From positions 1 through 30,860 of the IMG/VR virus record IMGVR_UViG_3300020166_000076: DNA of 30,860 nucleotides; one strand, given 5' to 3'. This document shows, piece after piece, positions 13,678-28,845 of the stretch. The translations under genes were made by a program, and so were the position numbers. Every line of letters starts with the position of its first letter. Positions within the stretch are counted from its first letter, which is position 1. Source of the DNA: a virus. The notes below the pieces were generated by a model that saw nothing but the letters and a program-made list of their open reading frames with translations, ran no database searches and was not told the DNA's origin.

Positions 13678-16600
13678 TTATTCGCCCAATAATTCCGCTG
13701 CTACTATACTAGAAATAATTTTAACATCTGCGGATGATGTTAAACTCAAGAAAATTTCAGTAGGTTCACTACTAATACTTAGCAAGTTTGAAAACTCTCC
13801 GGTTTGATATTTTGGTGTTATTATAATACTTGAAACATAATTAGGCAAAGTTCTGTGTACATATGCTGCTAATTCTGAAAAGTAAAATGTTTCTCCAAAA
13901 TCCCAGTTGTCAATATCAAAGAATGTATTAACTGCATTTGCAACTGCCGTTTTTATTTCACTATCACTGTATGAAGTTCCTGATTTCTTAACAACTTTAA
14001 ATACCGCTTGGTTCTCTGCTGCAGCAAATGAACCAAATAGATATTTAAACTTAACAGGTATATAACTGATATGATCTGATATACTTGCTTTAGGTTCAAT
14101 ACCTTGCATAATTTTTTTCAATTCATAGTTCGTTGGTTCCGATGGTATGATATCACTAAAGCCACCATTTATCCATGTATTAACTCTGCGAACATAGTCC
14201 GAACTAAGAATATATAAATCAATGATATTACTTGTACCAGGATCAATTCTCTTATCAATATCAGCATAATGATCCCATCTAAATGTCATAAATTTGTCTT
14301 CAACATAACTTCTTCCCTTCAGGATTCTATAAGTCACACCATTATATATAATTTTGTCTTTATTATCTGGATCTACTAATTGATATCTATCAGTTGGCAA
14401 AATTTCCCATCCGTTCGCAGTCTTTTCTTGCCATATGCCATCATTTAATGTAACATCGACTCCACTTATGAAAAATCTCAATGAAGCGGTCGGTGGTATT
14501 CTATCATTTTGTGATTCATTATATGCTATAACTGTATCACTGATACGTTCATATAATATATTATTATTTTGGTCTGTGTATGTTTCCAATACAATATGTG
14601 AGAAATTTACTACTGATATATCGCCAAGATCATCCGCGGCTTCACTATACACATCTTGATTGGAAAGAACTTCTAGCATACCATGTGGATTTCTAGTTAT
14701 ATCAGTACTACTTAATTTTACCTTACTATAATCAACATATCCTGCAGGTGTTATATATTTGTCAACTATGTAAGTTTCTGCGTCAGCGTATGATGAAACT
14801 CTATCTGTTTTTATACATCTTACCATTCTAGTGAGTTGAACTTTAAATTCTGATAATGTGGAAGTTCCACCAATATTATTAACGGTAATAGTATTATCTG
14901 TTCCACCATTTGTAGGATCAACTGTCCAAAATAATATTTTATAAGTATCAATATCAGTTGTTATAATTTCACAGTGTTTTAAATCTATATCAATTCCATC
15001 TGAATCTTGCAATGTAAAGTTATCAGGCGCAACATTCGGTGCAGTAAAATTTATTTCAGCGAATGCATATTGTTTCCAATATATATCCAGATCCGGACTA
15101 TCTGGATCTAAGCCATCATTATTTTCATTCTGTATAGAAAAACCAGTTGAACTCATATCATCAAAAATAAATTGATATGTGTTAGAACCATCAAACTGTG
15201 TAAAGAATTCAGTTTGTACACCAAAATCACTATTAGTCGCATTGTATCTAGTTTTACCAGTAGGCAATTCGGATTCATCTACCCATGCAAAATTACCATT
15301 ATTTGCTGCAATATTAAAATAAGTATCAGATACCTCACCTTTAAATCCATCCAAAACTAATTGAGAATCTGTATATGTTGAACTATATACAGTGGATGCG
15401 GTATTTGAAGCAGCACTATTTGAAATTGATGCCACCCCAAACGAAACAACTGATGCGCCGGCAGATACAACAGGAGAATTTGGATCTATCGAATTTATAC
15501 TGATGTCATCATTGAATGATTCTGTAGATAATTTACTAGATAAATTATCTACTGTATATGCAACTGTGTATGTTGGAGAAATTCCTATAGTTGTAGATTC
15601 ATCTGGAGTAATATCATATGATGATCCTCCAGGTGATATCAGTGTATGTAAATTTTCAACCACTTCCAAACAATCATTTGTATCCACAAATGTATTTGTA
15701 ATTACTGCGCCAGGAGTATCTTTCCATTTTATATCGAATGTTGCAGTATCGTCGGTCTCAACAATATTAATAATATCACCTGTTCCTACATGAATAGTTT
15801 GAGTTTCTTCATACGTGTCTTCTAAATTTTTAGTAGTTGAGTAATATTTCAGAAATAATCGATCACGCTCAGCTAAGTTTGTTTCATTGTTAACAACAAA
15901 TTTATTGTTATTATAATGAAACTTTATTTGTTTTGTACTGTCAAACACGATTTTTTTACCAGTGAAACGTGCTGTATATGCTGCTTCATTTTCTCTTATA
16001 CCAGGAACATATGTAAATGTGATAAACACATCTGTACCTTCAACAAGTGGAGGATCAACTAATTCATCATGTAATCTCCATCCCCATACATTTGTAGTTG
16101 TACCTGATTCATACATCAATGTAAATGTCTGAACTGACAAATCTTCTATTTTATTAATTTTTATATTATTAATTTCACTGTCTTCGAGTCTAGTTCTATA
16201 TCCTCTAACTATTCTATCAATTTCTCCGCTATTCTCGGGAATTAAATATTCGATGAAATATGAATCCATTGCTGATCCAGCAACACTAGATTCAATGTTA
16301 CTGACAGTTGTCCATGTTTTAGTGTTTTCATTTCCACTGTTTACTAATATATGATCACCAGGATATATATATGTAGTATTATAATTCACAGATGATGATA
16401 CATCAATGATGCTTTTATTTGTACTTCGGGTATTGAAATTAAGATTAGGATCTGTAATAACTGAGTTAGGATTGTACATATTTTCACAATAATATAAATT
16501 AATTAAACTTGGATGCTTTATAACTTCTGTTATTTTATTTCTAATAAAATTGTCAATCTGATTATTTTCTCTATTAAAACTCAGACTCATTGTTATATTA

Positions 16601-18072
16601 TCATCTTCCAAGAAGATACTACCGTCTGTTCCTATCGCACTTACATTTGAGTGATGGCCGGTTACGTCATCCATTTCAAAGAACCTGGAATTTCCTGCAA
16701 ATGTGGTATTAACTGCTTTTGATTTTGCAATAATATTTGAGCCAAGTGTTAGTGGATATATATTATAATCTTGTGCATTTATCATTCTATCTTGTGAATA
16801 ATATGCGCGTGGTGCAATTTGTCTCACACTCTCAAATGTCTCAGCCGAAAAGTTTTCGCTAAAGTCTCTGGTAGTTGACATTGTTAAAGTTAAATTATAT
16901 GGTCGGTCATCAGCACCAATATAAGGCACGATGATTGTGACGTTATCTATATCATTTGCATTAACCGAGAAATTTTGATTTTCTACTTGTCTAAACCATA
17001 CTCTATAATTACCATATGCTGCATTACCAAACACACCATCGGGAAAATTAACTTTTATGCTGTTGTCAACATTCGTAGTAATACTAGCAATTTCACCTGA
17101 TCCATTTTTAATAGTATTATATATCGCAGATTCTTTACTTTGATTGTCAATCAACGAAACAGTTGAAAAATATCTTCCATTGCTATCTACTTTCTGTAAC
17201 CAAACATCACTATTTGATATATTAATATTATTAATATTTTTTATTACATTTGACAATTTAACATTGTATGTGAAATCTTGGAATTTTAATTCTCCTGCCT
17301 TACTATATACAAAAAATCCAGTTCTGTCACTTGCTGGTCCTAAATTATCGTTGCGATTGACAATTGTAAAATTACTCGATGCCATAGGTTCTGATTCTAC
17401 AATTGAATCATCAATTATTTCTACCTTAGTAGTTTCAAATAAACGGGTTGCACCCGAAACATTTGATGTGAAAGGATATGAGACTGATTTGCCATTAGGA
17501 TTTTCATTGACTTCGTATATATTATTTTCTATACCGAGTATATCAATTTTTGCAATAGGATCTAAAATCTTAGAATTTTTAGATAGTGCAGAATCCAAAA
17601 CTGTAATGAATTTTTCATACCAGTCTGTGTCATTTGCATCATTCCAATTAATAGTGGTATTAGAAAGTGAATCTCCAGCATTATCAAATACATCTTGATT
17701 CGTAGTGACGCTTGTAATTTTCATAAAACCACGTGCATTGATCGGTCGTGTTTTTAAGTAGCCAAGATTCTTGGCCATTCTCAGTACAGATTCTTTACGC
17801 TCTGCCGTATCCAAGAAATTTTCTCTTGTATTCATATCAAGTCTGAAAGCCAATGAGTGTCCTAAATATGCAACCAAATCTAAGATTGCAATAAATTCTG
17901 AACTTGCTATAAAATCATTAAATTTTGAAGGATATGTTGTTTTAACGTAAGAAAGTAATGCTTCTCTAATAGTGTCAAAATCATATGCTTTCAAACTAAT
18001 ATTACTGTATGCAGTGTAAACCGCACTCCAACTTTCACTAGCGAATAAGTTATCAACTCTTTCTTGGCCCAT
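13678..18072 (-). CDS. 6: baseplate wedge subunit gp6, enlarged
   Basis: The N-terminus carries a gp6/gpJ-type wedge signature: FIASSEFIAILDLVAYLGHS and an adjacent NTRENFLDTAERKESVLRMA at about residues 54-97, followed by LGYLKTRPINARG. The C-terminus has WDFGETFYFSELAAYVHRTL, again typical of gp6. gp6 links neighbouring wedges of the baseplate into the inner ring. At 1464 residues it is more than twice T4 gp6 (660); extra sequence lies mostly in the middle, including a Ser/Thr/Asp-rich beta region around residues 814-1010. The start lies one base after the gp25 stop with AAAGAGA upstream. The order 25-6-(giant) mirrors T4 wedge gene logic. The identity is secure; the meaning of the insert is not known. 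Confidence 0.9.
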   Translation of the reverse strand: MGQERVDNLFASESWSAVYTAYSNISLKAYDFDTIREALLSYVKTTYPSKFNDFIASSEFIAILDLVAYLGHSLAFRLDMNTRENFLDTAERKESVLRMAKNLGYLKTRPINARGFMKITSVTTNQDVFDNAGDSLSNTTINWNDANDTDWYEKFITVLDSALSKNSKILDPIAKIDILGIENNIYEVNENPNGKSVSYPFTSNVSGATRLFETTKVEIIDDSIVESEPMASSNFTIVNRNDNLGPASDRTGFFVYSKAGELKFQDFTYNVKLSNVIKNINNINISNSDVWLQKVDSNGRYFSTVSLIDNQSKESAIYNTIKNGSGEIASITTNVDNSIKVNFPDGVFGNAAYGNYRVWFRQVENQNFSVNANDIDNVTIIVPYIGADDRPYNLTLTMSTTRDFSENFSAETFESVRQIAPRAYYSQDRMINAQDYNIYPLTLGSNIIAKSKAVNTTFAGNSRFFEMDDVTGHHSNVSAIGTDGSIFLEDDNITMSLSFNRENNQIDNFIRNKITEVIKHPSLINLYYCENMYNPNSVITDPNLNFNTRSTNKSIIDVSSSVNYNTTYIYPGDHILVNSGNENTKTWTTVSNIESSVAGSAMDSYFIEYLIPENSGEIDRIVRGYRTRLEDSEINNIKINKIEDLSVQTFTLMYESGTTTNVWGWRLHDELVDPPLVEGTDVFITFTYVPGIRENEAAYTARFTGKKIVFDSTKQIKFHYNNNKFVVNNETNLAERDRLFLKYYSTTKNLEDTYEETQTIHVGTGDIINIVETDDTATFDIKWKDTPGAVITNTFVDTNDCLEVVENLHTLISPGGSSYDITPDESTTIGISPTYTVAYTVDNLSSKLSTESFNDDISINSIDPNSPVVSAGASVVSFGVASISNSAASNTASTVYSSTYTDSQLVLDGFKGEVSDTYFNIAANNGNFAWVDESELPTGKTRYNATNSDFGVQTEFFTQFDGSNTYQFIFDDMSSTGFSIQNENNDGLDPDSPDLDIYWKQYAFAEINFTAPNVAPDNFTLQDSDGIDIDLKHCEIITTDIDTYKILFWTVDPTNGGTDNTITVNNIGGTSTLSEFKVQLTRMVRCIKTDRVSSYADAETYIVDKYITPAGYVDYSKVKLSSTDITRNPHGMLEVLSNQDVYSEAADDLGDISVVNFSHIVLETYTDQNNNILYERISDTVIAYNESQNDRIPPTASLRFFISGVDVTLNDGIWQEKTANGWEILPTDRYQLVDPDNKDKIIYNGVTYRILKGRSYVEDKFMTFRWDHYADIDKRIDPGTSNIIDLYILSSDYVRRVNTWINGGFSDIIPSEPTNYELKKIMQGIEPKASISDHISYIPVKFKYLFGSFAAAENQAVFKVVKKSGTSYSDSEIKTAVANAVNTFFDIDNWDFGETFYFSELAAYVHRTLPNYVSSIIITPKYQTGEFSNLLSISSEPTEIFLSLTSSADVKIISSIVAAELLGE

Positions 18073-18073
18073 G

Positions 18074-18445
18074 TTATTCTCTTTCTAAATTCAATGTTAG
18101 TTCAACTTTTTCGTTTGTAGGTATTATTGAAACCGATAGTTGAATATCAATAGTATGATTGGTATCTGTTATATTTAAAACTTCAAGACGCACACGTGGA
18201 TCACCATCTATTATATAATTTATATCTTTTCTGATTAAATCTTTCAACTCAGGTGTAAGTGGTTCAAATATTAAATCATGTATTATGCTACCGTAAGTAG
18301 GCATCATTATACGTTCACCTTTGCGTGTCATAAGATTATTCATCAAATCTTCAATAATCAAATCCTTACCGTAAAGATTATGATTTATTGCGTTTTTGTT
18401 CTTGGTACTAAATCCTGAAAATCTAATCTGCATCATGTCTCTCAT
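18074..18445 (-). CDS. 25: baseplate wedge subunit gp25
   Basis: The 123-residue protein fits the GPW/gp25 family in length and motifs: NNLMTRKGERIMMPTYGS at about residues 36-53, then LIFEPLTPELKDLIRKDI and a DPRVRLEVLNI segment. gp25 is a small core wedge protein that anchors the first sheath ring to the baseplate in contractile tails. The start is uncertain among three in-frame ATGs (codons 1, 4 and 5); none has a strong ribosome binding site, and the listed one is the longest. A late-promoter octamer lies 22 bases upstream, making this the first gene of the gp25-gp6-giant block. Confidence 0.92.
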   Translation of the reverse strand: MRDMMQIRFSGFSTKNKNAINHNLYGKDLIIEDLMNNLMTRKGERIMMPTYGSIIHDLIFEPLTPELKDLIRKDINYIIDGDPRVRLEVLNITDTNHTIDIQLSVSIIPTNEKVELTLNLERE

Positions 18446-18765: not shown

Positions 18766-19365
18766 ATGCCAACTCTAGTACCAATGGTTGTAGACCAATC
18801 TGCTAATGGTGAACGAAGTTATGATATCTTCTCTCGGCTTCTTAAAGAACGTGTTATATTTTTAACTGGTGAAGTCAATGACTACCAAGCAGATTTACTA
18901 TGTGCACAATTTCTATTTTTAGAAAGTGAAAATCCAGAAAAAGATATCCATTTTTATATTAACTCTCCGGGTGGCGCAGTAACCGCTGGTATGGCAATAT
19001 ATGATACTATGCAATTTATTAAGCCAGATGTCAGTACGACTGTAATGGGACAAGCATGTTCTATGGGATCACTATTGGCAACTGCTGGTGCAGCAGGAAA
19101 ACGATATATTTTACCAAATGCCAGGCATATGATTCATCAGCCAAGCGGTGGTGCTGGCGGTCAAGCAACTGATATGGAAATTCAAGTTAAAGAAATCTTA
19201 AAGATGAAAAGGTCACTAACAGAAATTTATGTTAAACATAATAGTGCTAACAAAACACTAGATGATATGCTTGCAGCAATGGAACGTGACAACTTTATGA
19301 ATCCAACTGAAGCTCTTAACTTTGGCTTAGTAGATGAAGTTATTACGCATCGTCCTGAACTTTAA
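18766..19365 (+). CDS. clpP: ATP-dependent Clp protease proteolytic subunit
   Basis: The 199-residue protein is a full ClpP serine peptidase, very close to the bacterial enzyme. Catalytic Ser99 lies in GQACSMGS, His124 in MIHQPSGG, and Asp175 in ERDNFM; the oxyanion and strand region YINSPGG sits at 64-70. ClpP forms a double-heptamer chamber fed by ClpX or ClpA. The protein begins [11 protein letters not shown], which aligns with the mature N-terminus of E. coli ClpP, so there is no propeptide to remove. The ribosome binding site AAGGAA overlaps the stop of the preceding gene. No Clp ATPase gene is in the window, so it presumably works with the host unfoldase or mixes with host ClpP. It is convergent with the GH24-like gene, the stop codons overlapping by four bases. 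Confidence 0.95.
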
Positions 19366-20003
19366 CTAAATCCAGGCACATAACTCCACATTTTGGCAGT
19401 TTCAATTCTTAAAGCGGCAAGTCGGTCATCGACTCTGCCGTTTTCTCTTTTTATACTTGTTTGTATTTCATCAGTAATATCATACCATTGTCTGTTGTTA
19501 ATGAGTTTAATGATAGGACTATTTTCTATCTCACTTACACCTTCATAATAAAAATAATGAATGAGTGCATCATATTGTGGCTGACCTAATGGTTCATGAA
19601 CAAATTTTTCTAAAACATTACCAATTGCTCTTAATTGTTTCTCAAGTATTAGTTGTGCTGATGCAATTGTTATCTTTGCAGTTTCAATTGAAATACGTTG
19701 AGAAGCAACAGTTATATAACCATATTTAATCTCAACATCTGGAATTTCATAGTTATAGCCTATAATATTTCTGCCATTTATTGTCAGTGACGGAATAGTA
19801 TCCTTTATAATACTATTTTTACTCAAATTAGAAAAAACCAATTGATTTACTGGAAAGGATATTACATTAGTGTAGGATAGGGTATATGTTGGCATTGAAT
19901 TAACGTCATATCCTGTTCCTAAATATGTACCGTATGGAGTAATAACATGCAATGGCAACTGTATATAATTTAAAAGTGATCCTTTTTTCTTATCATAAAT
20001 CAT
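19362..20003 (-). CDS. GH24 lysozyme-like tail protein, probably catalytically degenerate
   Basis: The 213-residue protein starts at ATG 20003, not at the longer frame reaching 20048: AGGAGA sits seven bases upstream of this ATG and the preceding gene stops one base before it. Residues of about 1-90 are beta-rich and unassigned. The C-terminal half resembles GH24 endolysins: [20 protein letters not shown], then [17 protein letters not shown], and finally [15 protein letters not shown], equivalent to the family's QxxFDALxSxxxNxG and GLxxRRxxE elements. The family's catalytic Glu-8-Asp/Cys-5-Thr segment should precede GYNYEI, but I see no fitting Glu or Asp there. It may be a structural pseudo-lysozyme of the hub or spike tip. 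It is last in the gp48-gp53-hub-gp5 cluster, which supports a virion role. Confidence 0.6.
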
Positions 20004-20004
20004 T

Positions 20005-22317
20005 TTATGCTCTCCTAGTAGGAGGCGAATATTTCCAACCGCCTTCATCTCTTGCCTGTTTCAGCCAACCAGGCGCACTTCTCCAACTATGTGTCTTGCC
20101 CCACATACCCTGATCATTTCTATATGTTGCGATATCAACATGTACGCCAACACCACCCATATATCCCTCTCCTGCACCTACCGCATTTGCTCCAGCAAGA
20201 AAACATTCTCTTGCAAATTTTTTCATAATTCCAGTATCTCTTCGCACTGATAATTTTCCACTTTCTTTGTCAGCCGATGATTTATATAACCAAACATCTG
20301 CAGCAAATCCATTATCGTGACCTGTGCCGCCAGTTCTTCTAGTACCTCTACCCTCCTGATCTTGACCACCAGAAAATATAACTAATTCAACCCCTGTTGC
20401 TTTTGCTGCTGTTTCTAGTATAGAAAATAGTTTTGGTTGAATTGGTTTATTTCGTATCTGCCCAGAGAAGTTAGCCGAGTAAGTTACTGTTCCTGTACCA
20501 CCAGCCACTTGTTCCTCTATACTTTGATCATTAATTTGTTGTTGTTCGGCTGTAGAATCTGCAGAATTTGCGCCTGCACTATTTAAATTAGGCTTCGTAG
20601 CAGGTATTTGTCCGCCATTTGCACTTCCAGTTGCACCTGAACCCGAACTTGTATTAGCAGGAGCAGGTTTTCTACGCATCATTGGTTCATGCGATACCAT
20701 AGTTGACATGATACTTTCATCTATTTTAGAACTTTCTAGGTTTTGTATATCATTGTGTGACACTGTACTAAGTCCAGGTGATTTTGCTGCTTGTGGTCCA
20801 TTCAAATGTAGAATACCTCCCGTCGAAACATACATATTACTTCCTACTTTTATATGATTACTGCCAGCACTATCATAAAACTGCGAACCTTCACTTTTTA
20901 TATGTGTTTGATTTCCACTGTTAACAGCAAAATTATTACCAGATTTTATGTTTATTTTTTCGCCTGATTCTATATTAATATTTTGGTCTGCGCGTAAGTT
21001 GAAATCCTTTTCCGTGCGCATACTTAATGATCCTTGTGCATATATCATTACTTCGCCAGACGGTCCAATTTCTATAAATCCTGACCCCGTACTATTAACC
21101 ATATAGATTAAATCATTTGTTCCATCTAATATAATACTTGCACCTGAACCTGTTTGTAATCTTATTTGATTAGGATGAATAAATCCATCATCATCAACAC
21201 TGCCATCATCCATAGTAAGTGCGGTTGAACCGGGAGTTTTAATACCATATACAGTATTAGGTTTTGGGTTATCATAATTTGCATTTCTCAAAGGCGAAGC
21301 AGTTGTTTGTCCTCTAACACTATCGGAATAAATTCCTTGAGCCGCAAGATTTATATTTCTAGGATGATTTTCTGGTATTTGATCAAAAGTTCGGGTATCA
21401 GAATTTACATCATTATTTGCAGAATTTGCCTGATTTCTACCTGTTTTCACTTCGTCTTCCGGTTTTTCACCTCCTGGAATAACGGGTATTTGTCCTGAAC
21501 CCTTACTATCACTAGTCGAACTAATACTTGATCTTTTATTTACCTCTGCCGCCACCTGTTCTGCACCTTTACTATTACTAGTCGAACTGGTACTAGATGG
21601 CGATTTTGTTTCTATTCCTGCTATTGGTCCTTGTGCATAGGCAAGATCATTATAGTATGCTTCTGATTTAACAACTTCTTCAGTAACTGGAACAACAGAA
21701 ACTTGATTTGCGCCTTTACTATCACTTGTTGAACTATTGGAAGATAATCCACTGTCATTTTTATCGGTAGCAACATCCCATGTACGTTGATCCATACTAA
21801 CATTTTCAGGTGCGTTATCATCATATGATATAACATCACGTTGTGCGGCAGTGAGTTCCGTGGGATTAATTTTTCCACTAGGCTTGTCTTTAAAAACGCC
21901 CTCGCCTTGTCCAGTTCCATCTACTTTTGCTTGTCCCGATGTACCACCTGCTGCAATATCAGGTACTTCTTGTGCCACCGCAAACCAGTATCCTTCACTT
22001 AATTCTCCATTATCAGCAAAGAATACTAGAATCGTAACTCCTATACTTGGAGGTACTGCATGGAATCCATAACTACCAGATGAATTAGAACCGCCAAATG
22101 GAGATGCATATTGAAAAAACACAGGTCTTTCTTTATTTCCACCCAATTTAGGAACATAAGCAGCAATTCTACCTCTGCCTTCCGGATCTGGCTTTCCTGC
22201 AACGGTTATTGCATGGTATATACCGCTTTGAATATTATTCATCACGGGACTTAAATTAGAAAGATTGTCCTTCTTTAAAGCACCTGATAAATCGTTTTTG
22301 TTGTCATCGCTATACAT
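20005..22317 (-). CDS. 5: gp5-like baseplate spike with C-terminal M15-type peptidase domain
   Basis: The 770-residue protein has three parts. Residues of about 30-120 form the OB-fold of gp5/VgrG spikes (GIYHAITVAGKPDPEGRGRI and following). Residues of about 355-510 form a beta-helix stalk with short repeating strands (NLRADQNINIESGEKINIKS), as in the gp5 needle. The C-terminal part, from about 610, carries the zinc-peptidase signature HDNGFAAD (H667, D674) and GVHVDIA (H726, D728), matching HxxGxAxD plus HxD of M15 D-Ala-D-Ala peptidases. T4 gp5 instead has a lysozyme between OB fold and helix. Between them a Ser/Gly-rich linker contains three SSTSxSKG repeats. The spike pierces the outer membrane and the peptidase would open the cell wall. 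The catalytic role is inferred from the motifs. Confidence 0.8.
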   Translation of the reverse strand: MYSDDNKNDLSGALKKDNLSNLSPVMNNIQSGIYHAITVAGKPDPEGRGRIAAYVPKLGGNKERPVFFQYASPFGGSNSSGSYGFHAVPPSIGVTILVFFADNGELSEGYWFAVAQEVPDIAAGGTSGQAKVDGTGQGEGVFKDKPSGKINPTELTAAQRDVISYDDNAPENVSMDQRTWDVATDKNDSGLSSNSSTSDSKGANQVSVVPVTEEVVKSEAYYNDLAYAQGPIAGIETKSPSSTSSTSNSKGAEQVAAEVNKRSSISSTSDSKGSGQIPVIPGGEKPEDEVKTGRNQANSANNDVNSDTRTFDQIPENHPRNINLAAQGIYSDSVRGQTTASPLRNANYDNPKPNTVYGIKTPGSTALTMDDGSVDDDGFIHPNQIRLQTGSGASIILDGTNDLIYMVNSTGSGFIEIGPSGEVMIYAQGSLSMRTEKDFNLRADQNINIESGEKINIKSGNNFAVNSGNQTHIKSEGSQFYDSAGSNHIKVGSNMYVSTGGILHLNGPQAAKSPGLSTVSHNDIQNLESSKIDESIMSTMVSHEPMMRRKPAPANTSSGSGATGSANGGQIPATKPNLNSAGANSADSTAEQQQINDQSIEEQVAGGTGTVTYSANFSGQIRNKPIQPKLFSILETAAKATGVELVIFSGGQDQEGRGTRRTGGTGHDNGFAADVWLYKSSADKESGKLSVRRDTGIMKKFARECFLAGANAVGAGEGYMGGVGVHVDIATYRNDQGMWGKTHSWRSAPGWLKQARDEGGWKYSPPTRRA
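21487..21741 (-). repeat. three SSTSxSKG linker repeats in the gp5-like spike
   Basis: Three copies of a roughly 14-residue unit occur in the linker of the spike protein: SNSSTSDSKGANQV at about residues 193-206, SSTSSTSNSKGAEQV at 241-255 and SSISSTSDSKGSGQI at 263-277. The DNA copies (21700-21741, 21553-21597, 21487-21531) are similar but not identical. They sit between the OB fold and the beta-helix, where T4 gp5 carries its lysozyme. Confidence 0.75.
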
Positions 22318-22319
22318 TT

Positions 22320-22397
22320 TTACTCTTCGCCTTCAATAATTATAAACGGGTTAATACGAATTCTCATTTTCGTCTTTGTGTTTTTATTTTCTAACAT
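22320..22397 (-). CDS. possible 25-codon micro-ORF upstream of the spike gene
   Basis: In the 137-base gap 22318-22454 an ATG at 22397 opens a frame of 25 codons (MLENKNTKTKMRIRINPFII, then IEGEE) ending two bases before the spike ATG. Basic in its first half and hydrophobic in its second. Only a weak GAAAG lies upstream. It may be a leader peptide, or nothing. The gap also holds a direct repeat TTCTAACATTT at 22389-22399 and 22408-22418; I found no late octamer in it. Confidence 0.2.
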   Translation of the reverse strand: MLENKNTKTKMRIRINPFIIIEGEE

Positions 22398-22454
22398 TTA
22401 TTTTACTTTCTAACATTTGATGTCATACCTTATATAATAAAGAAATATTACTTA

Positions 22455-25400
22455 TTATTCCGCTTTTATCCAGCGGAATCCATTCCAATCTGATCCGAAT
22501 GTTTTATTATAATAATCAATCATAGTTTTTGATGCCGTATTGGTTACGAGATCGCTTTCAATTAAACTTTTTTCAAGCGCAGAGCCTGCATATATTTTCT
22601 GGTTTCCTACCATACTAAAAAATCTAGAATCTTTATAGACACGGGTGGGAGACTCTGCAAGTGGCTGTGTTGGATCAGTGATTATAAATTCTTTCCATGT
22701 CTCGTAATCAGTCGCACTCTGAGTCCTAGTCCCAATTAAGGGATAACTATCAGCAATTTTTTGTTTTGTGCTTTCTAGAAACTGTCTTGTAAGAATAGTT
22801 GTTGACGATGTATCTACAACATCTCCTTCTAATACATTTGGCGAAAAGGGTATATTATATACAGATGCAAGATCAGTATTAGTAAATCCGGTAACCACAG
22901 TAACTGAATCACCATTCGGCGTAACTGCTTTTGTAATTGTCATACCATCACTAGTAAACAGATTCTTCATTACTGCATTTGCAGATTCATACTGTGCAAG
23001 ATGTTCCTCTGTAAAATCTTCCACTGGTATGTCAGTAATTGCATTAATAGGTAAAACATAACCAGCCGATGGACTGGTAGGCATAGACTCTGAGTCTAGA
23101 TCAACCACAATTGATCCATCTGGATTAACTCTTATTCTTTCAGCAGTAAACTCATTTGGTGAATATGAAAGAGAAGCAACATCATTTTGCGCCCCATACC
23201 TTGTATCTACTAGAACCTGCGCCTCTGTATCATTCCAACTCCATTCACTGTCACCGCCTGATAATCTGTCATTGTATACTCTAATTGATTTGTCCAATTC
23301 ATTATTAATTTTAAGTAGTTTCGCCTCATTCCGAATGGGATCCAATTGTGCAACTTCATCAATTTCATCATATGCATCACTCAAATTATTATAATGTCTT
23401 TTTTCATCCACTGACAAATCATTGTAACTGCCACCTACTTCTGCAATCATCTGGGTTTGTGCGTCTTGTATTCTCGCTTGCATTATTGCTTCTCTAGGTG
23501 TTTTCATTGGAGTATTGATAATTTTTTCTGCGGTCACGGGCGGATCGGCAGGAAGTGTTGACACAGTGTACGGATTATCTATTTCGTTTAATAGTTTTAC
23601 TTGATCAGGAGGAAGCGTATCTAAATATTTTCTTACCTTTATTCCATTACGAGTGTCTGCTACCTCTTTATATCCATCAACTACATCATCTGGTAAATCC
23701 AGAGATTCTAATTGTTCTATATTATAATCAACTACGGGAGGTCTAGGATCAGTATATACTTCAGTAGATTCTATTGGTAATAAGCCTCCTAACATTAAAT
23801 TAGAAGTTTCTATACGAAGTGAAGATGGTATATCGGCATTGGGAGACATATCAACCGTTGGAGTCATTAAAGTTTTAGTTGGTGTTTCGATTAATTCATC
23901 GACACTTAAAGAATTCATACCTTCAATTGTCTGTATTTCAGTCATAATATTTGAAACGTCAACGTCACTAATATTATTAGGTGGTATTACTTCAGTTGTA
24001 TTATCTGCATATACTTTTGTGTTTAAAAATGCCACTAATTCAGGTGAAACTATTTCTCCATTATCTACTTGTTGTTGTAAAAAATCACTTGCATCTTCTG
24101 TGTTTCCATATTTATTTCTTATATCATTCTTAATTTTTTCAACTGCCGTGGCCGCTTCTGGTGATCCAAATGCTGCAGCCATTTCTGCTTCATTCATCAG
24201 TGCAGCAAGTCTATTCACATCTGATGCATGTGGTGTGGCATATGAGAATATAAAATTATGTGCATCCTTTGCTAAACTTCCATGTATATGTCTGAAAGAA
24301 TTTTTGGCAACTGTTCTAGGATCAATAGCACCATCGCGCCCAAGTGCATCAGTTATATCCGAAGGTATTCCTGCAACATCAGCCAAATCCTGAAATTCAT
24401 TGGGTATTGATGCGACTAGATTATTAGCAACACCTGCAAATTCGCCAAGTGTTTCGTCACCAAAGTTTATATTTCTGAAGGCATTTATGGCACTACCACC
24501 AAATTCACCAAGTGGATCAGAACCGAAGAGTGAATCCCCAAAGGAATTTATACCACTGCCATCAGCACCTGCAAATTCACCAAGTGGATCAGAACCGAAG
24601 GATGAATCTCCAAAGGGATTTATGCCATTACTGCCGCCGGGTCCATTGCCGGATCCACCAATAACATTATTTCCTCCACCTGTTTCAACACGTTTAAAAT
24701 TATCTGGTATAGGCAGGCGTACACAGTTTAATTGTTGAGTGAATTGTCCTTGTGCAAATGTATTAATAACACTCTTTACAGAATACAAAAATATATCCAA
24801 ATTATCAATTTTTATATTATCAAAATCATCTACTCCATCTGCTTTATTAACTACCAACAATAAATAATTTGTTCCGTTGACATTTGTAACGATAGATTTA
24901 TGTGCGTCCGATGTGTTATCCTTGCCAACTATTTGTTTTTTTACATCTTCAGTTATATAAAATTCCATCCAAAAAGGATCACCTTTAATAGTCATAGATA
25001 GATTTGCCATACTTAAATCACCATTCAATGATTCAAATAATTTACTTCTTGCAAGTTCTATATTTTCCAAGTCAGTAGATTTAAACGTTGATACTGATTT
25101 TTTCCCTCTCATCATTGGTATTATATTATTCATAAAATTAATACTGTTTAATTGCATTGCATCCATTAAGTCGGAAAATTCTGCATCTGTTAATTTTTTA
25201 AAAATATCACCATCTTCTTTTAATTCTTCTGCCAATACAAGTCCTGTAGGATCACCCAATAATTTTGCACGTGTACTTGCATTGTTAGAATTAAATCCCG
25301 CAAAACGCCCTGCGAGACTTGCTCCAACTTGTTCTGCAATCGTTCTATCGTCCGAACCTATTTTAAGTGTTAAATCACTTATTGATGATGCTGTTTCACT

Positions 25401-27866
25401 TAATTCGTCAGAAATATTATTAATATCGTCTTCTAATTTAGATATTTTTTGTAATAGTGGTTCACCTGTTTCTAAATTTTTGACAAATTCTGTAATGTTA
25501 ATGCCGTGTCGATTTGCAGCAACTTGAATGTCAGCCAGACTCTCTGCCTTGCCCAATTCGTCAAAGAATTTGTCTTTTGATTCTGGATTTGTAGATTGTA
25601 TATCGCCTTCGTTATCTGGATCGTTTAAGTCAGCCATTAATCCAGAAAATTCAGACTTCGCTTGTTCCTGTTTTAATTTTTGTAATTCTTCTTGCTTCTG
25701 TTGTTGTGTAGTACTAAGTTCCGTTTTCTTTTTATTAAAATCATCTAAGGAAGAAACTGTTTTATTAAAGTTTTCTAACTGCTTACTTTCTAATATATTA
25801 TCTAATTGCATTCCAGCCGGTAAAAATTTATTCCAAGAAAATTCATTTCCTGGTGGAGAATAACTTTTAGTAAGTTGCTTATCTAGTGATATAGTTAAAT
25901 CTAATATCTGATCATTTAGTCCAGTATAATAATAATTATATAATTTTCTACATCTACCTGTCTGAAAAATTTCATCTAGTATTTTATTTGTAGATGATAT
26001 TTTTGCAGTTTGGTCAGTGACATTTTGAACTACTATCTCTTTATGCATGGATATATTATAAACAGTATGATGTGACATTATATTTGTGATTGGATTATGC
26101 TTCTTCTGTATTATTTCTGGAGAAATTCTAACAACCTTAGAAAAACCATCAATTGATGCAGTTAACTCTTGTCTTATCTGTACATTCTGAATCAGAATAT
26201 CATATATCAGATCAATGATACTTACTCCTATAGGAACTTGTCCTATTTGTTCAGAAACATTAAACTTGGTTTTGCTTTTTTTACTAACATTATTACTCGC
26301 CGCACTTTTATTAGCAATAGGTCCATTCATTGGAGTACTTGAATACTCATCTTTAAAATCAGATTCGAGTTTTATTTCATAAGTATTAACGAAATCTGAT
26401 TGTTCTGAACTAAAACTAGTAGCAGCCCGGGCAGATGTATTCAATTCATCGTTAAAATTATTAAGTGTTTCCTGTAATGTATCTCCTATTACAAAATTAA
26501 AGTCTATTTTAGTAGTATTTACTCCATGACTCACAGATGCATAATTCGAAACTGTTCCACTAATAGTGGTTGTAGTACCGGTTTCATCTGTTGTCGTATT
26601 CAAATCAATAAATTTATCAATTCGAAATGGTATAACTTTAACAGTTGGTAATTTTAGTATATTGGTTGGATTATCATAACTGTATCCATTATATGTAACT
26701 TTAATAAAGAAGGTAGCCGTATTAATATTTACATATTCCATCAAATTTGCAGCAGAATTCAATGTATCATTTAAATCACTATCACCAATTTGTGTTATAT
26801 CAAATTGTAATCCCTTATCTATTCCTACCATTTTTGCAGCACTACCATAACCAGTTCCTAAATTTTCGACAACTAAGTTATCAATATTAAATTCTGTTGT
26901 TACTGCTGATTGTGCAATTATTAATTTAGGAATTGTTTGTTCTGGCCATTCTCCTCTTATAGTCTTTTCAAACTCTATGTCTTTAAACTGTAAGAAATTT
27001 TGAGCGTCATCTTTTGGAATAATAAAAAATTCTATATTATAAGTATAATTTTCATAGTTGTCTAGTTCATTTTCATAATACATTCCCGCTTGTTCTGTTT
27101 GCTGTAGAACTTCTTTCATATTTCCTAAACTCGAACTTGAGAAATTTGAATTACTATTTGAACCGTTAAATGTGACATCTGATACATCATCACCAACTAT
27201 CGATCCGTCAGTTTCATCATTCGCCACTGTGAATGGAGAATTTGCTTTAGCGGCATCAAATCGTTCTTGTGCATCAGCCCTATCTCTAGAAGATGCATTA
27301 GGATCTGCATTTGCTTCATCTAAATTTTTTCTTGCTCTTTTAAACTCAGTTAATGCTTTTTGTTCTTCAGAGGTTAAAGTTCGTCTTGATTCAGAATCTG
27401 CAGCGCCGACATCTTTTGGAGGAAACGTTGTTTGGCCCTCACCTTTTGCTAGACTAATTCCTTTTTTAAGTGATGGTCTAAAGTGGTCTAGAGATTCATT
27501 ACCACCTTCATGTTGTATAATTGCACCTACTAATTTTTCAGTAATTGCTGGATTTGCTGATAGATCAATATCTTGATCAGGACTAACTCCCAACTTTTTG
27601 GCAACTGCATTTACATATGCAGTTGTATTATTTTCATTAGGGGGCGCCCACTTATTAATAATTTCACGAACTGATCTTCTATTATAACCATTGTCAGATC
27701 CCGGTCTATTATATTTGTATAGTAATTTTGTCATCGCTCGGACACCCATTTCTGGAGATCCAAAAGTTACAAATGACTGGTCAGTACCCTTAACCGAACC
27801 ATTCCAGTTAGAGCCTCCATGTCTAATATTACCAGGATTATTATTTCTTACATTACGCGGTGCCAT
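22455..27866 (-). CDS. large baseplate hub/tail protein with N-terminal P5-type muralytic domain
   Basis: The 1803-residue protein begins with VRNNNPGNIRHGG and continues with FVTFGSPEMGVRAM, then IINKWAPPNENNTTAYV and a LGVSP segment (residues of about 4-105). This is the signature of 'structural protein P5'-type virion muralytic domains, presumed transglycosylase-like. A charged linker follows. Residues of about 265-500 form beta-rich hub-like sequence (YTYNIEFFIIPKDDAQNF; VTTEFNIDNLVVENL). Coiled-coil segments lie near 705-745 and 803-840, then three glycine-rich repeats at 1082-1149, then a long region of unknown fold. The gene lies between gp53 and the spike, two bases after gp53. Position and size suggest a hub protein doing the job of T4 gp27 with extra modules. 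That equivalence is not proven; only the N-terminal domain is recognised with confidence. Confidence 0.7.
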   Translation of the reverse strand: MAPRNVRNNNPGNIRHGGSNWNGSVKGTDQSFVTFGSPEMGVRAMTKLLYKYNRPGSDNGYNRRSVREIINKWAPPNENNTTAYVNAVAKKLGVSPDQDIDLSANPAITEKLVGAIIQHEGGNESLDHFRPSLKKGISLAKGEGQTTFPPKDVGAADSESRRTLTSEEQKALTEFKRARKNLDEANADPNASSRDRADAQERFDAAKANSPFTVANDETDGSIVGDDVSDVTFNGSNSNSNFSSSSLGNMKEVLQQTEQAGMYYENELDNYENYTYNIEFFIIPKDDAQNFLQFKDIEFEKTIRGEWPEQTIPKLIIAQSAVTTEFNIDNLVVENLGTGYGSAAKMVGIDKGLQFDITQIGDSDLNDTLNSAANLMEYVNINTATFFIKVTYNGYSYDNPTNILKLPTVKVIPFRIDKFIDLNTTTDETGTTTTISGTVSNYASVSHGVNTTKIDFNFVIGDTLQETLNNFNDELNTSARAATSFSSEQSDFVNTYEIKLESDFKDEYSSTPMNGPIANKSAASNNVSKKSKTKFNVSEQIGQVPIGVSIIDLIYDILIQNVQIRQELTASIDGFSKVVRISPEIIQKKHNPITNIMSHHTVYNISMHKEIVVQNVTDQTAKISSTNKILDEIFQTGRCRKLYNYYYTGLNDQILDLTISLDKQLTKSYSPPGNEFSWNKFLPAGMQLDNILESKQLENFNKTVSSLDDFNKKKTELSTTQQQKQEELQKLKQEQAKSEFSGLMADLNDPDNEGDIQSTNPESKDKFFDELGKAESLADIQVAANRHGINITEFVKNLETGEPLLQKISKLEDDINNISDELSETASSISDLTLKIGSDDRTIAEQVGASLAGRFAGFNSNNASTRAKLLGDPTGLVLAEELKEDGDIFKKLTDAEFSDLMDAMQLNSINFMNNIIPMMRGKKSVSTFKSTDLENIELARSKLFESLNGDLSMANLSMTIKGDPFWMEFYITEDVKKQIVGKDNTSDAHKSIVTNVNGTNYLLLVVNKADGVDDFDNIKIDNLDIFLYSVKSVINTFAQGQFTQQLNCVRLPIPDNFKRVETGGGNNVIGGSGNGPGGSNGINPFGDSSFGSDPLGEFAGADGSGINSFGDSLFGSDPLGEFGGSAINAFRNINFGDETLGEFAGVANNLVASIPNEFQDLADVAGIPSDITDALGRDGAIDPRTVAKNSFRHIHGSLAKDAHNFIFSYATPHASDVNRLAALMNEAEMAAAFGSPEAATAVEKIKNDIRNKYGNTEDASDFLQQQVDNGEIVSPELVAFLNTKVYADNTTEVIPPNNISDVDVSNIMTEIQTIEGMNSLSVDELIETPTKTLMTPTVDMSPNADIPSSLRIETSNLMLGGLLPIESTEVYTDPRPPVVDYNIEQLESLDLPDDVVDGYKEVADTRNGIKVRKYLDTLPPDQVKLLNEIDNPYTVSTLPADPPVTAEKIINTPMKTPREAIMQARIQDAQTQMIAEVGGSYNDLSVDEKRHYNNLSDAYDEIDEVAQLDPIRNEAKLLKINNELDKSIRVYNDRLSGGDSEWSWNDTEAQVLVDTRYGAQNDVASLSYSPNEFTAERIRVNPDGSIVVDLDSESMPTSPSAGYVLPINAITDIPVEDFTEEHLAQYESANAVMKNLFTSDGMTITKAVTPNGDSVTVVTGFTNTDLASVYNIPFSPNVLEGDVVDTSSTTILTRQFLESTKQKIADSYPLIGTRTQSATDYETWKEFIITDPTQPLAESPTRVYKDSRFFSMVGNQKIYAGSALEKSLIESDLVTNTASKTMIDYYNKTFGSDWNGFRWIKAE
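24420..24623 (-). repeat. three glycine-rich repeats in the hub protein
   Basis: Three consecutive units of 24, 21 and 23 residues (about 1082-1149 of the hub protein) begin INPFGDSSFGSDPLGEF, INSFGDSLFGSDPLGEF and INAFRNINFGDETLGEF. The first two are close at DNA level, sharing long stretches including TCACCAAGTGGATCAGAACC on the plus strand, so they arose by recent tandem duplication; the third is older. Confidence 0.85.
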
Positions 27867-27868
27867 TT

Positions 27869-28159
27869 TTAGCCCATTCTATCTATATTTTTTTTACTGG
27901 GTATTTTAATTTTTGTACCAGCAGTAAAATCATTAATAGGGTCCTGTATAATATCTGGATTACGTTGTGAAAATATCCACCAATATTTTGCAGTACCATA
28001 ATTCTCATAACTGACTAGGTCGGGTCGTAAATTAAATTTTTGTGGTATAATATATTCCATGTCCAACGGATCTTTGTATATAAATCTAGGTTGCTGAATA
28101 TCTAATATTTTATCAAACATCACACGTGTATTTCTCCATGGCGAATTATTACTATACAT
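27869..28159 (-). CDS. 53: baseplate wedge subunit gp53
   Basis: The 96-residue protein matches the gp53 family in its core: RPDLVSYENYGTAKYWWIFS and NPDIIQDPINDFTAGTKIKI (about residues 45-90). This LysM-like fold, with its Tyr-Trp-Trp centre and an ending of the IxIP type, is the hallmark of gp53, which clamps the wedges to the hub. It is about half the length of T4 gp53 (196 residues), so only the conserved core is present. The start has an excellent AGGAGAAGGA ribosome binding site within the end of the gp48-like gene, whose stop it overlaps. Gene order 48-53-hub-5 supports the call. Confidence 0.85.
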   Translation of the reverse strand: MYSNNSPWRNTRVMFDKILDIQQPRFIYKDPLDMEYIIPQKFNLRPDLVSYENYGTAKYWWIFSQRNPDIIQDPINDFTAGTKIKIPSKKNIDRMG

Positions 28160-28754
28160 ATCCTTCTCCTCTTAAACCACCTGATAAGTATTTTTCTAAT
28201 GTAAAATTATCTCTTACGTTTTTAGGTGAATATGTAACTAAAAAATCAATCACAAAAGTTCCACTAACTGGCATTTGTATTACAGTTTCAGGATTTTGTT
28301 CAGTTCTAGTCTCTATATCAATATACGAAACATCCGCATCTAAGTTATATACAAAATTATTTACTAACACAGGAATATTTTGAAAAACTCCATGTGCATT
28401 AAATCTCAGTACAGGAGGTGGCAAGCCACGCTGTTCATCATTTTTTCCAAATCTCATTTTCATAGCACCTCTAAAAAAATCTAACGCACTAAGTATAGTT
28501 TGTCCTTGTTCAACATTTTCTATTATTATAGGCGCAGTAACATTAATTGTGGCATTTGATCCACTTTGAAAAAACTGTTGCTGAAAATTAGAATGTGTAG
28601 GTGATACTTGTGTGTAATTTGCATTTGACATATTTGTAATAGTAGGGGTATATGGAAAATTGAAACTACTCATACCATCACCTTCGACACTCAATCTGCC
28701 ACTAGGATCCGAAATGTTTACCGGCTGTGAGGTACTATATGGATTATATGCCAT
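28152..28754 (-). CDS. 48: baseplate tail-tube cap protein, gp48-like
   Basis: The 200-residue protein carries in its second half LSALDFFRGAMKMRFGKNDE, then RGLPPPVLRFNAHGVFQNIP and DADVSYIDI, ending YSPKNVRDNFTLEKYLSGGL. This pattern (a short helix, PPPVLxxxxxG, and a YSxxxxRxxFxLxxxxxG ending) is that of tube-cap proteins such as gp48, which seat the first tail-tube ring on the baseplate; gp54 is the alternative. The start at 28754 has AGGAGAT seven bases upstream. The frame stays open to an ATG at 28829, but that lies upstream of the late promoter at 28781, so it is unlikely to be used. First gene of the late cluster. Confidence 0.75.
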   Translation of the reverse strand: MAYNPYSTSQPVNISDPSGRLSVEGDGMSSFNFPYTPTITNMSNANYTQVSPTHSNFQQQFFQSGSNATINVTAPIIIENVEQGQTILSALDFFRGAMKMRFGKNDEQRGLPPPVLRFNAHGVFQNIPVLVNNFVYNLDADVSYIDIETRTEQNPETVIQMPVSGTFVIDFLVTYSPKNVRDNFTLEKYLSGGLRGEGYV

Positions 28755-28780
28755 GCTATTGATCTCCTGATTATTAACAG

Positions 28781-28788
28781 TATTTATC
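28781..28788 (-). promoter_or_regulatory. T4-type late promoter octamer
   Basis: GATAAATA on the minus strand lies 26 bases before the gp48-like ATG at 28754. It heads the longest late cluster of the window (tube cap through GH24-like protein). It shares the octamer with 18467-18474 and 4306-4313, extending to GATAAATACT with the gp25 copy. Confidence 0.72.
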
Positions 28789-28845
28789 ACTGTATTAACT
28801 ACGAATATTTTAAACTTTATACTTGACACGTATTATTTTTTAAGG

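Follow-up and report, generated by a model that had tools for sequence, protein, structure and literature searches.

The window analysed here, i.e. the whole stretch of 30,860 bases forming positions 1 to 30,860 of IMG/VR virus record IMGVR_UViG_3300020166_000076, carries tail-tip genes of a marine virus that is, judged by a gene order common to them and by matches of its spike and hub sequences, a contractile-tailed phage related to the 121Q/RaK2 and PA5oct jumbo phages. Its hub, its central spike and the gene following the spike (here called gene 3) fairly probably encode a tip with two predicted enzyme sites, a glycosidase on the hub and an LAS/M15-type peptidase on the spike, together with a separate lysozyme-fold protein apparently devoid of catalytic residues. 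The original prediction, made from the letters of the window alone, had placed three wall-directed modules in these adjacent genes. All three were located as claimed, in intact minus-strand open reading frames (ORFs) of the ORF list, but they are not three equal wall-cutters, the catalytic triad of gene 3 being unrecognisable. The features concerned are the following.

22455..27866, minus: hub-like baseplate protein, 1803 residues (ORF; phrog_11190 virion structural protein, E 4e-37; synteny)
27489..27866, minus: predicted Enc34/PHA02564-type glycosidase domain, hub residues 1-126 (PHROG and PDB chain matches)
27648-27650, 27615-27617 and 27507-27509: W73, Y84 and E120, putative active-site residues of the hub domain
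20005..22317, minus: central spike (T4 gp5-like: OB fold, beta-helix region), 770 residues (Phage_base_V, E 2e-4; DUF2345, E 2e-4; phrog_13211 baseplate hub subunit and tail lysozyme, E 1.5e-9)
21982..22203, minus: spike OB domain, residues 39-112 (PF04717, slightly below the curated cut-off)
20803..21060, minus: spike beta-helix region, residues ~420-505 (PF10106, phrog_9992; PHIKZ164 6orj, E 0.0011)
20008..20517, minus: predicted divergent LAS/M15-type zinc-peptidase domain, spike residues 601-770, with H667, D674, H726 and D728 (family profile and AlphaFold model)
19362..20003, minus: gene 3, a 213-residue protein with a conserved N-terminal segment and a GH24 fold without recognisable catalytic triad
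19377..19844, minus: GH24-fold part of gene 3, residues 54-209 (6h9d match)

Hub N-terminal domain

The N-terminus of the hub is a predicted Enc34/PHA02564-type glycosidase in which the counterparts of the active-site residues are retained. A muralytic-type domain had been expected at this place under the label 'P5-type' (filed here as Enc34/PHA02564-type) and was confirmed: residues 1-126 matched phrog_873 (E 5e-42) and phrog_7182, 'tail injection transglycosylase' (E 1e-24), as well as two chains of solved structure, 9vvp (named Gp29; E 3e-26) and 7q47 (listed as 'Endolysin'; E 7e-21). The alignment to 7q47, which we take from its residue numbering to be the Enc34 endolysin, pairs hub residues 2-124 with chain residues 6-136, and the similarity spans the catalytic domain. 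In the same alignment W73, Y84 and E120 of the hub correspond to Trp79, Tyr95 and Glu131 of Enc34 (by our count, the chain numbering is one higher). For the Enc34 domain, the published account, as excerpted, reports muralytic activity, argues for a beta-N-acetylglucosaminidase, and equates Glu131 with the catalytic glutamates of structural homologues, Trp79 and Tyr95 with residues important in them (PMC8943055).

Regarding the 24 distinct non-degenerate hub domains, the Tyr and the Glu are present in all and the Trp in 21, the other three having Tyr instead. (Counts of relatives, here and below, are among the matches listed, i.e. the best 80 loci per search.) Degenerate Enc34-type copies were found in the hubs of L259, L260 and L261; Trp, Tyr and Glu are all lost there, and the spike peptidase domain is still present.

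Spike C-terminal domain

In the window spike, which lies beside the hub, an OB fold and a beta-helix region, as in T4 gp5 and each supported by weak single Pfam scores, precede a C-terminal domain of 170 residues. A lysozyme domain between OB fold and helix was not detected, as Pfam gave no Phage_lysozyme match in the spike.

The C-terminal domain is, on sequence and model, a divergent predicted LAS/M15-like zinc peptidase outside any named M15 subfamily. An M15-type peptidase had originally been read from the motifs HxxGxAxD and HxD. These motifs are real and the fold is that of the LAS group, but residues 601-770 matched no family of Pfam, PHROG or NCBIfam. Within a family of 39 members built from relatives, H67, D74, H126 and D128 (domain numbering; H667, D674, H726 and D728 of the spike) are invariant, and HxxGxxxD...HxD occurs in 27/27 distinct spike copies. 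The predicted zinc ligands are H667 and D674 of HxxGxxxD and, as second histidine, H726; in YcbK the modelled ligands are likewise two His and one Asp (PMC3927764, as excerpted). The second histidine of the spike domain lies in HxD, and no HxH, ExxH or DxxH motif was found at this place; HxH and ExxH are missing in YcbK too, according to the same excerpt (PMC3927764). The 39 members yielded a single weak Pfam match, to VanY (E 0.013), and none to an M15-type NCBIfam model at E 0.1. With the family profile, matches were obtained to the M15C peptidase 23ri (E 3e-4), a phage RB49 protein according to its title, to LysECD7 (8q2g, E 3e-3) and to Ply500 (E 0.13).

Structure prediction, which had been proposed as a check of the spike C-terminus, came out in its favour: the AlphaFold model (predicted local distance difference test, pLDDT, 87.6) falls among MepA, Ply500 and hedgehog folds. 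Foldseek ranked MepA first (E 8e-4); hedgehog, LysECD7, ChiX and Ply500 came next, and rows 1-15 were all LAS-fold; with VIA, rows 1-40 were LAS-fold at a Z of at most 7.2, which is middling on its own. The domain may work as an M15 peptidase does, but it is classed at the LAS level only; no M15 model of Pfam or NCBIfam matches the window copy.

Gene 3

Gene 3 encodes a GH24 fold that, on sequence and model, seems to have lost its catalytic residues and is under strong purifying selection. The GH24-like domain originally expected in this gene stood as far as the fold is concerned; a catalytic triad was not recognisable, and the listed start at 20048 did not hold. Since conservation sets in at M16 of the listed ORF, the gene is taken as 19362-20003; its start at 20003 follows the spike stop by one base, and AGGAG lies upstream. 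The Pfam match to Phage_lysozyme (E 5e-9) covers only profile positions 28-114 of 125, and this partial match, together with the lack of a recognisable catalytic Glu or Thr, leaves the label 'peptidoglycan-directed' unconfirmed for gene 3.

In the AlphaFold model of gene 3 (pLDDT 74; other four models 53-60), residues 54-209 form a GH24 fold, with the SpmX muramidase domain 6h9d as best structural match (Z 14.5, root-mean-square deviation 2.2 over 136 residues). T4 lysozyme entries scored Z ~9.5-10, and residues 1-53 were barely covered by the fold search. The best viral structure match was BFVD A0A6J5KQM7 (E 6e-9, TM 0.75 over 234 columns); the matching region sits within a 763-residue protein of an uncultured phage labelled endolysin, and the whole gene 3 architecture may exist as part of a larger protein.

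Across 73 distinct sequences (window included), no conserved Glu or Thr of the catalytic Glu-Asp-Thr triad was found in either of the two registers possible in the beta-lobe, where the alignment to real GH24 enzymes is uncertain. Column 68, near the end of helix A, holds D in 51 sequences, T in 13, N in 6 and S, H and K in one each, and Glu occurs in 37/73 at column 74 and in 25/73 at column 50. The Thr column holds K, N, R or D (in the other register mostly I, K, L or V), and Asp is found at column 89 in 40/64. The sole invariant acid of the beta-lobe is E91 (19731-19733), which is Glu in 73/73. The lysozyme of phage ME3 was excluded from the GH24 profile because the Glu motif is missing in that protein itself. 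(The Acinetobacter phage ME3 gene, L248:304-762, is annotated as endolysin.) A sequence relationship of gene 3 to gene 586 of 121Q was also considered and rejected: no profile match was obtained, and the two share position alone, both matching the GH24 family.

Ratios of nonsynonymous to synonymous substitution rates (dN/dS) were computed by the Nei-Gojobori method for pairs with 0.05 < dS < 2 in four hand-chosen groups of 21 loci. Gene 3 gave medians of 0.069, 0.099 and 0.089 for three such groups, and an additional pair gave 0.107; the corresponding values were 0.211 and 0.102 for the Enc34-type domain and 0.183 and 0.091 for the two peptidase types. A decaying pseudogene is ruled out by the gene 3 medians of 0.07-0.10. 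Gene 3 accompanies 54/57 distinct hubs of the window kind, the other three stretches ending too early or showing no whole spike, and it occurs even in relatives with neither hub nor spike module. Two loci, L133 and L134, have a peptidase domain of the window's spike type and no gene 3 on the stretch examined; hence the domain also occurs apart from gene 3.

Most likely, gene 3 is structural at the tip or holds glycan without cutting it. Confidence in such a tip role is low, because CBB_239, the product at the same place in CBB, is not confirmed as structural (PMC5259590, as excerpted). This finding, together with the PHROG families matched by gene 3, which are mostly labelled endolysin, would suit a protein acting outside the tip, soluble or linked to lysis and sharing the operon only. 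We hold that alternative to be rather improbable: in the window a single base separates the gene from the spike stop, and gene 3 adjoins the spike also in relatives whose spike and hub have no enzyme domain; moreover, a lysis enzyme devoid of catalytic residues would be hard to explain.

A tip with three active cutters was rejected, as gene 3 has no recognisable conserved catalytic Glu or Thr. It could be revived if gene 3 were a muramidase acting through a relocated acid such as E91, placed by the model in the beta-lobe region; the invariance of this residue and of T98 (64/64), the strong purifying selection and the complete GH24 fold would be in keeping with activity. However, E91 aligns near the strand of the triad Thr, whereas the catalytic Glu of GH24 enzymes ends the first helix; the Thr column is occupied by other residues; and E-G, D and S are retained in the GH24 domains of hubs from this phage group. 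An active gene 3 product is therefore unlikely.

Two sites with different domains across relatives

A census was made of the hub end and the spike end for 59 distinct hubs whose 5' end is present, the window hub being merged with the identical hub of L081. Module classes were assigned with our own profiles, and Pfam was run on three of the five GH24 hubs and on the spikes of L030 and L032 (M15_4) and L289 (VanY). The spike type of the window is designated A3. The combinations (hub end, then spike end) were:

Enc34-type with M15_4-type: 13 hubs
Enc34-type with A3: 12 hubs
degenerate Enc34-type with A3: 3 hubs (L259-L261)
no hub domain with A3: 3 hubs (L262, L263, L265)
GH24 with M15_4-type: 2 hubs
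GH24 with A3: 2 hubs
Enc34-type with VanY: 1 hub (L289; PF02557, E 9e-25)
neither domain: 17 hubs, plus L065 with a 75-residue extension
GH24, spike unseen: 1 hub
no hub domain, spike unseen or cut: 2 hubs
not counted as hubs of the window kind: 2 proteins (L163, L171)

Where filled, the hub site has glycosidase-type domains and the spike site has LAS peptidases of three kinds, which amounts to one predicted bond class per site. The three GH24 hubs put to Pfam matched PF00959 over positions 1/2-125 (E 1e-18 to 1e-21), and the E-G, D and S motif is present in 5/5. The M15_4 assignment was confirmed by Pfam on L030 and L032, and HxxGxxxD plus D/ExxH occurs in 19/19 distinct domains of this type. 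A search for further GH24 hubs returned the query's own contig alone.

A tree of 57 hub cores, built quickly with IQ-TREE and excluding L163 and L171, implies at least five changes at the hub end and at least four at the spike end, and among filled rows at least two of hub type and at least three of spike type; end branches are long, above all that of L289, and these counts are rough. L264, whose hub has a GH24 domain, branches as close sister to L262, L263 and L265, which have none at the hub end, and the difference looks like a recent loss or gain. Both sites look exchangeable in evolution. The A3, M15_4 and VanY types may have replaced one another or may have diverged from one LAS ancestor.

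The idea that the tip cuts both glycan and peptide, put forward in the original prediction for three modules, is supported as a prediction for two of them, because across relatives the hub site takes glycosidases and the spike site peptidases; the third module looks catalytically dead. Several observations weigh against the overall reading of two enzyme sites and a separate gene 3 protein. In the spike domain of the window, the position three residues ahead of the second zinc histidine is not acidic, whereas Asp or Glu occupies it in 19/19 M15_4-type spike copies. L262, L263 and L265 carry a spike peptidase and no hub glycosidase, the hub domain of L259-L261 is degenerate, and neither module is present in 17 hubs (18 with L065); since some relatives are without one or both, neither module is essential to the machine. 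Nor is the joint presence of the modules independent evidence, because it goes back to one split on the tree, with 0/2 independent pairs. To these points belong the unconfirmed status of CBB_239 and the absence of gene 3 from 5/257 loci (L133, L134, L163, L164 and L171); the 257 loci, overlapping stretches from fewer contigs, each show a complete spike followed by 900 or more bases.

A 'both or neither' rule was considered and not retained: the 54 rows comprise 30 with both modules, 18 with neither, 6 with a peptidase and no active glycosidase and 0 with the reverse, and the rule is unproven at 0/2 independent pairs.

That the hub and spike domains merely bind peptidoglycan, or that one is an assembly factor, with cutting done elsewhere in the particle, might be argued from the unchanged gene order in relatives without both modules, from the degenerate copies in L259-L261 and from the PA5oct spike and hub, which have no enzyme family in Pfam, but it is improbable in view of the active-site residues retained in the window copies and almost entirely in the other non-degenerate ones, and of different enzyme families of the same bond class at each site.

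Proposed mechanism

In the two-site reading, the Enc34-type glycosidase at the hub N-terminus would cut glycan strands, and the predicted LAS/M15-kind zinc peptidase at the far end of the spike, past the beta-helix needle, would cut stem peptides or cross-links. Upon tail contraction the spike peptidase would meet the wall first and the hub glycosidase next, and both bond classes would be opened locally for the tube. The gene 3 protein would most probably, though with low confidence, be structural in the tip or hold glycan without cutting.

A more far-reaching version is speculative. In it the tip would be a two-site tool with a fixed holder, taking any glycosidase at one site and any LAS peptidase at the other, each independently exchanged among marine phages; gene 3, its active site lost, would be a non-cutting glycan holder or a gauge by which the spike is positioned on the wall, retained even in relatives without either cutter.

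Tail-tip gene block and its relatives

The block lies on the minus strand in the order structural gene, baseplate wedge gene, hub, spike, gene 3, gp25-like gene and a large gene at the gp6 position; upstream of it, on the plus strand, are a late sigma factor gene and an SbcD-like gene. The neighbouring features are:

28152-28829, minus: structural gene
27869..28159, minus: baseplate wedge gene adjoining the hub (phrog_7145 baseplate wedge subunit, E 2e-21), which we take to be gp53-like
18074..18445, minus: gp25-like baseplate wedge gene, downstream (PF04965, E 7e-11)
13678-18072, minus: large gene at the gp6 position (identity from position; no Pfam match)

The name 'hub' for 22455..27866 is given by analogy, because the gene adjoins the spike just as the structural genes 588 of 121Q and 0134 of PA5oct do; a profile of the hub core found no PDB relative among solved structures. 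The window spike matched the PA5oct spike (E 4e-18) and 121Q 587 (E 1e-4), and 121Q 588 was matched by the hub of relative L219 (E 4e-6). In Escherichia phage 121Q the order is gp6-like 583, baseplate 585 (at the gp25 position), lysozyme 586, spike 587, then 588, 589 and 590, followed on the other strand by sigma 591 and SbcD 592. The order in PA5oct is largely that of the window, without a counterpart of gene 3, and the records of the PA5oct spike and hub bear a note of electrospray ionization tandem mass spectrometry (ESI-MS/MS). A contig of 342,607 bases is among those bearing gene 3.

The gap between hub and spike (22318-22454) measures 137 bases, and ~2-4 bases in several relatives with the same spike type. 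The window hub has 1803 residues, compared with 1442-1717 in those relatives sharing the spike type whose hub is complete and has an Enc34-type domain. A full ClpP gene (18766-19365, plus strand; PF00574, E 1e-77) lies between gene 3 and the gp25-like gene, and 38/43 listed relatives with a gap at this place have there, likewise on the opposite strand, a protein whose N-terminus is nearly identical. Other plus-strand genes occur between gp25 and spike in PA5oct and Phosso. A search of genome contigs with gene 3 returned one contig, from a Flavobacteriaceae metagenome-assembled genome, which is too little for naming a host.

Implications

Within a single contractile tip, the cutting of two different bond classes is assigned, as a prediction, to separate named sites, each with varied natural fillings and absences, and the comparison of relatives makes the question of what a tip must cut to pass the wall testable. 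In addition, an apparently non-catalytic lysozyme emerges as a widely retained phage gene, and a peptidase-like family emerges outside any Pfam model.

Comparison with known systems

The muramidase domain that matched the gene 3 structure best belongs to SpmX, a polarity protein of bacteria; this domain is reportedly a phage-derived GH24 that has lost its lytic role. Gene 3, in contrast, is a phage gene beside a spike. For a lysozyme-fold gene without recognisable triad, and for the exchange at two sites, a limited search of one open library returned no published account. The hub domain resembles the Enc34 endolysin (PHA02564) along its length and retains its Trp, Tyr and Glu; Enc34, however, is a free endolysin with a membrane tail, whereas the window domain is fused to a baseplate protein.

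T4 gp5, like the window spike, combines an OB fold with a beta-helix beside the hub. Its one lysozyme domain sits between OB fold and helix (PMC3622015, as excerpted), whereas in the window a peptidase-like domain follows the helix and the hub bears the glycosidase. The contrast with a single lysozyme in T4, drawn in the original prediction, is correct for gp5 but overstates the rarity of the arrangement, as RaK2-like phages stack lysozyme domains (PMC5259590, as excerpted).

Among these RaK2-like phages (121Q 586-588, CBB_238-241, RaK2 gp078), 121Q has the gene order of the window, and an enzyme at the spike C-terminus after the helix and wall modules stacked in adjacent genes are common to the group and the window (PMC5259590 and PMC3622015, as excerpted). 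According to the excerpted account of CBB, CBB_238, 239 and 240 are possibly baseplate-associated proteins with lysozyme domains, of which 238 and 240 are confirmed as structural; CBB_240, the spike, and CBB_241, the next gene product, were detected in virions, and the spike has a possible M23 peptidase domain (E 6e-4) (PMC5259590). In 121Q 587 (L328:4371-7034), the segment between helix and GH24 looks to us like M23 without zinc ligands, and Pfam M23 was not matched. 121Q differs from the window as follows: its spike bears GH24 where the window spike bears a predicted zinc-peptidase domain, its hub yielded no enzyme family where the window hub begins with a predicted Enc34-type glycosidase, and its free GH24 at the place of gene 3 has the motif, whereas no triad is recognisable in the free GH24 fold of the window.

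The tail knob protein gp13 of phi29 has lysozyme-like and endopeptidase parts (PMC9863714, as excerpted); it is one protein of a short-tailed phage of a Gram-positive host, whereas the window has two proteins in a contractile-tail operon. Stacked baseplate lysozymes and a possible M23 peptidase are thus already published for RaK2-like phages, and the combination in the window is a different one. Since these phages and phi29 gp13 already combine wall modules, the arrangement described here is a variation on a known theme.

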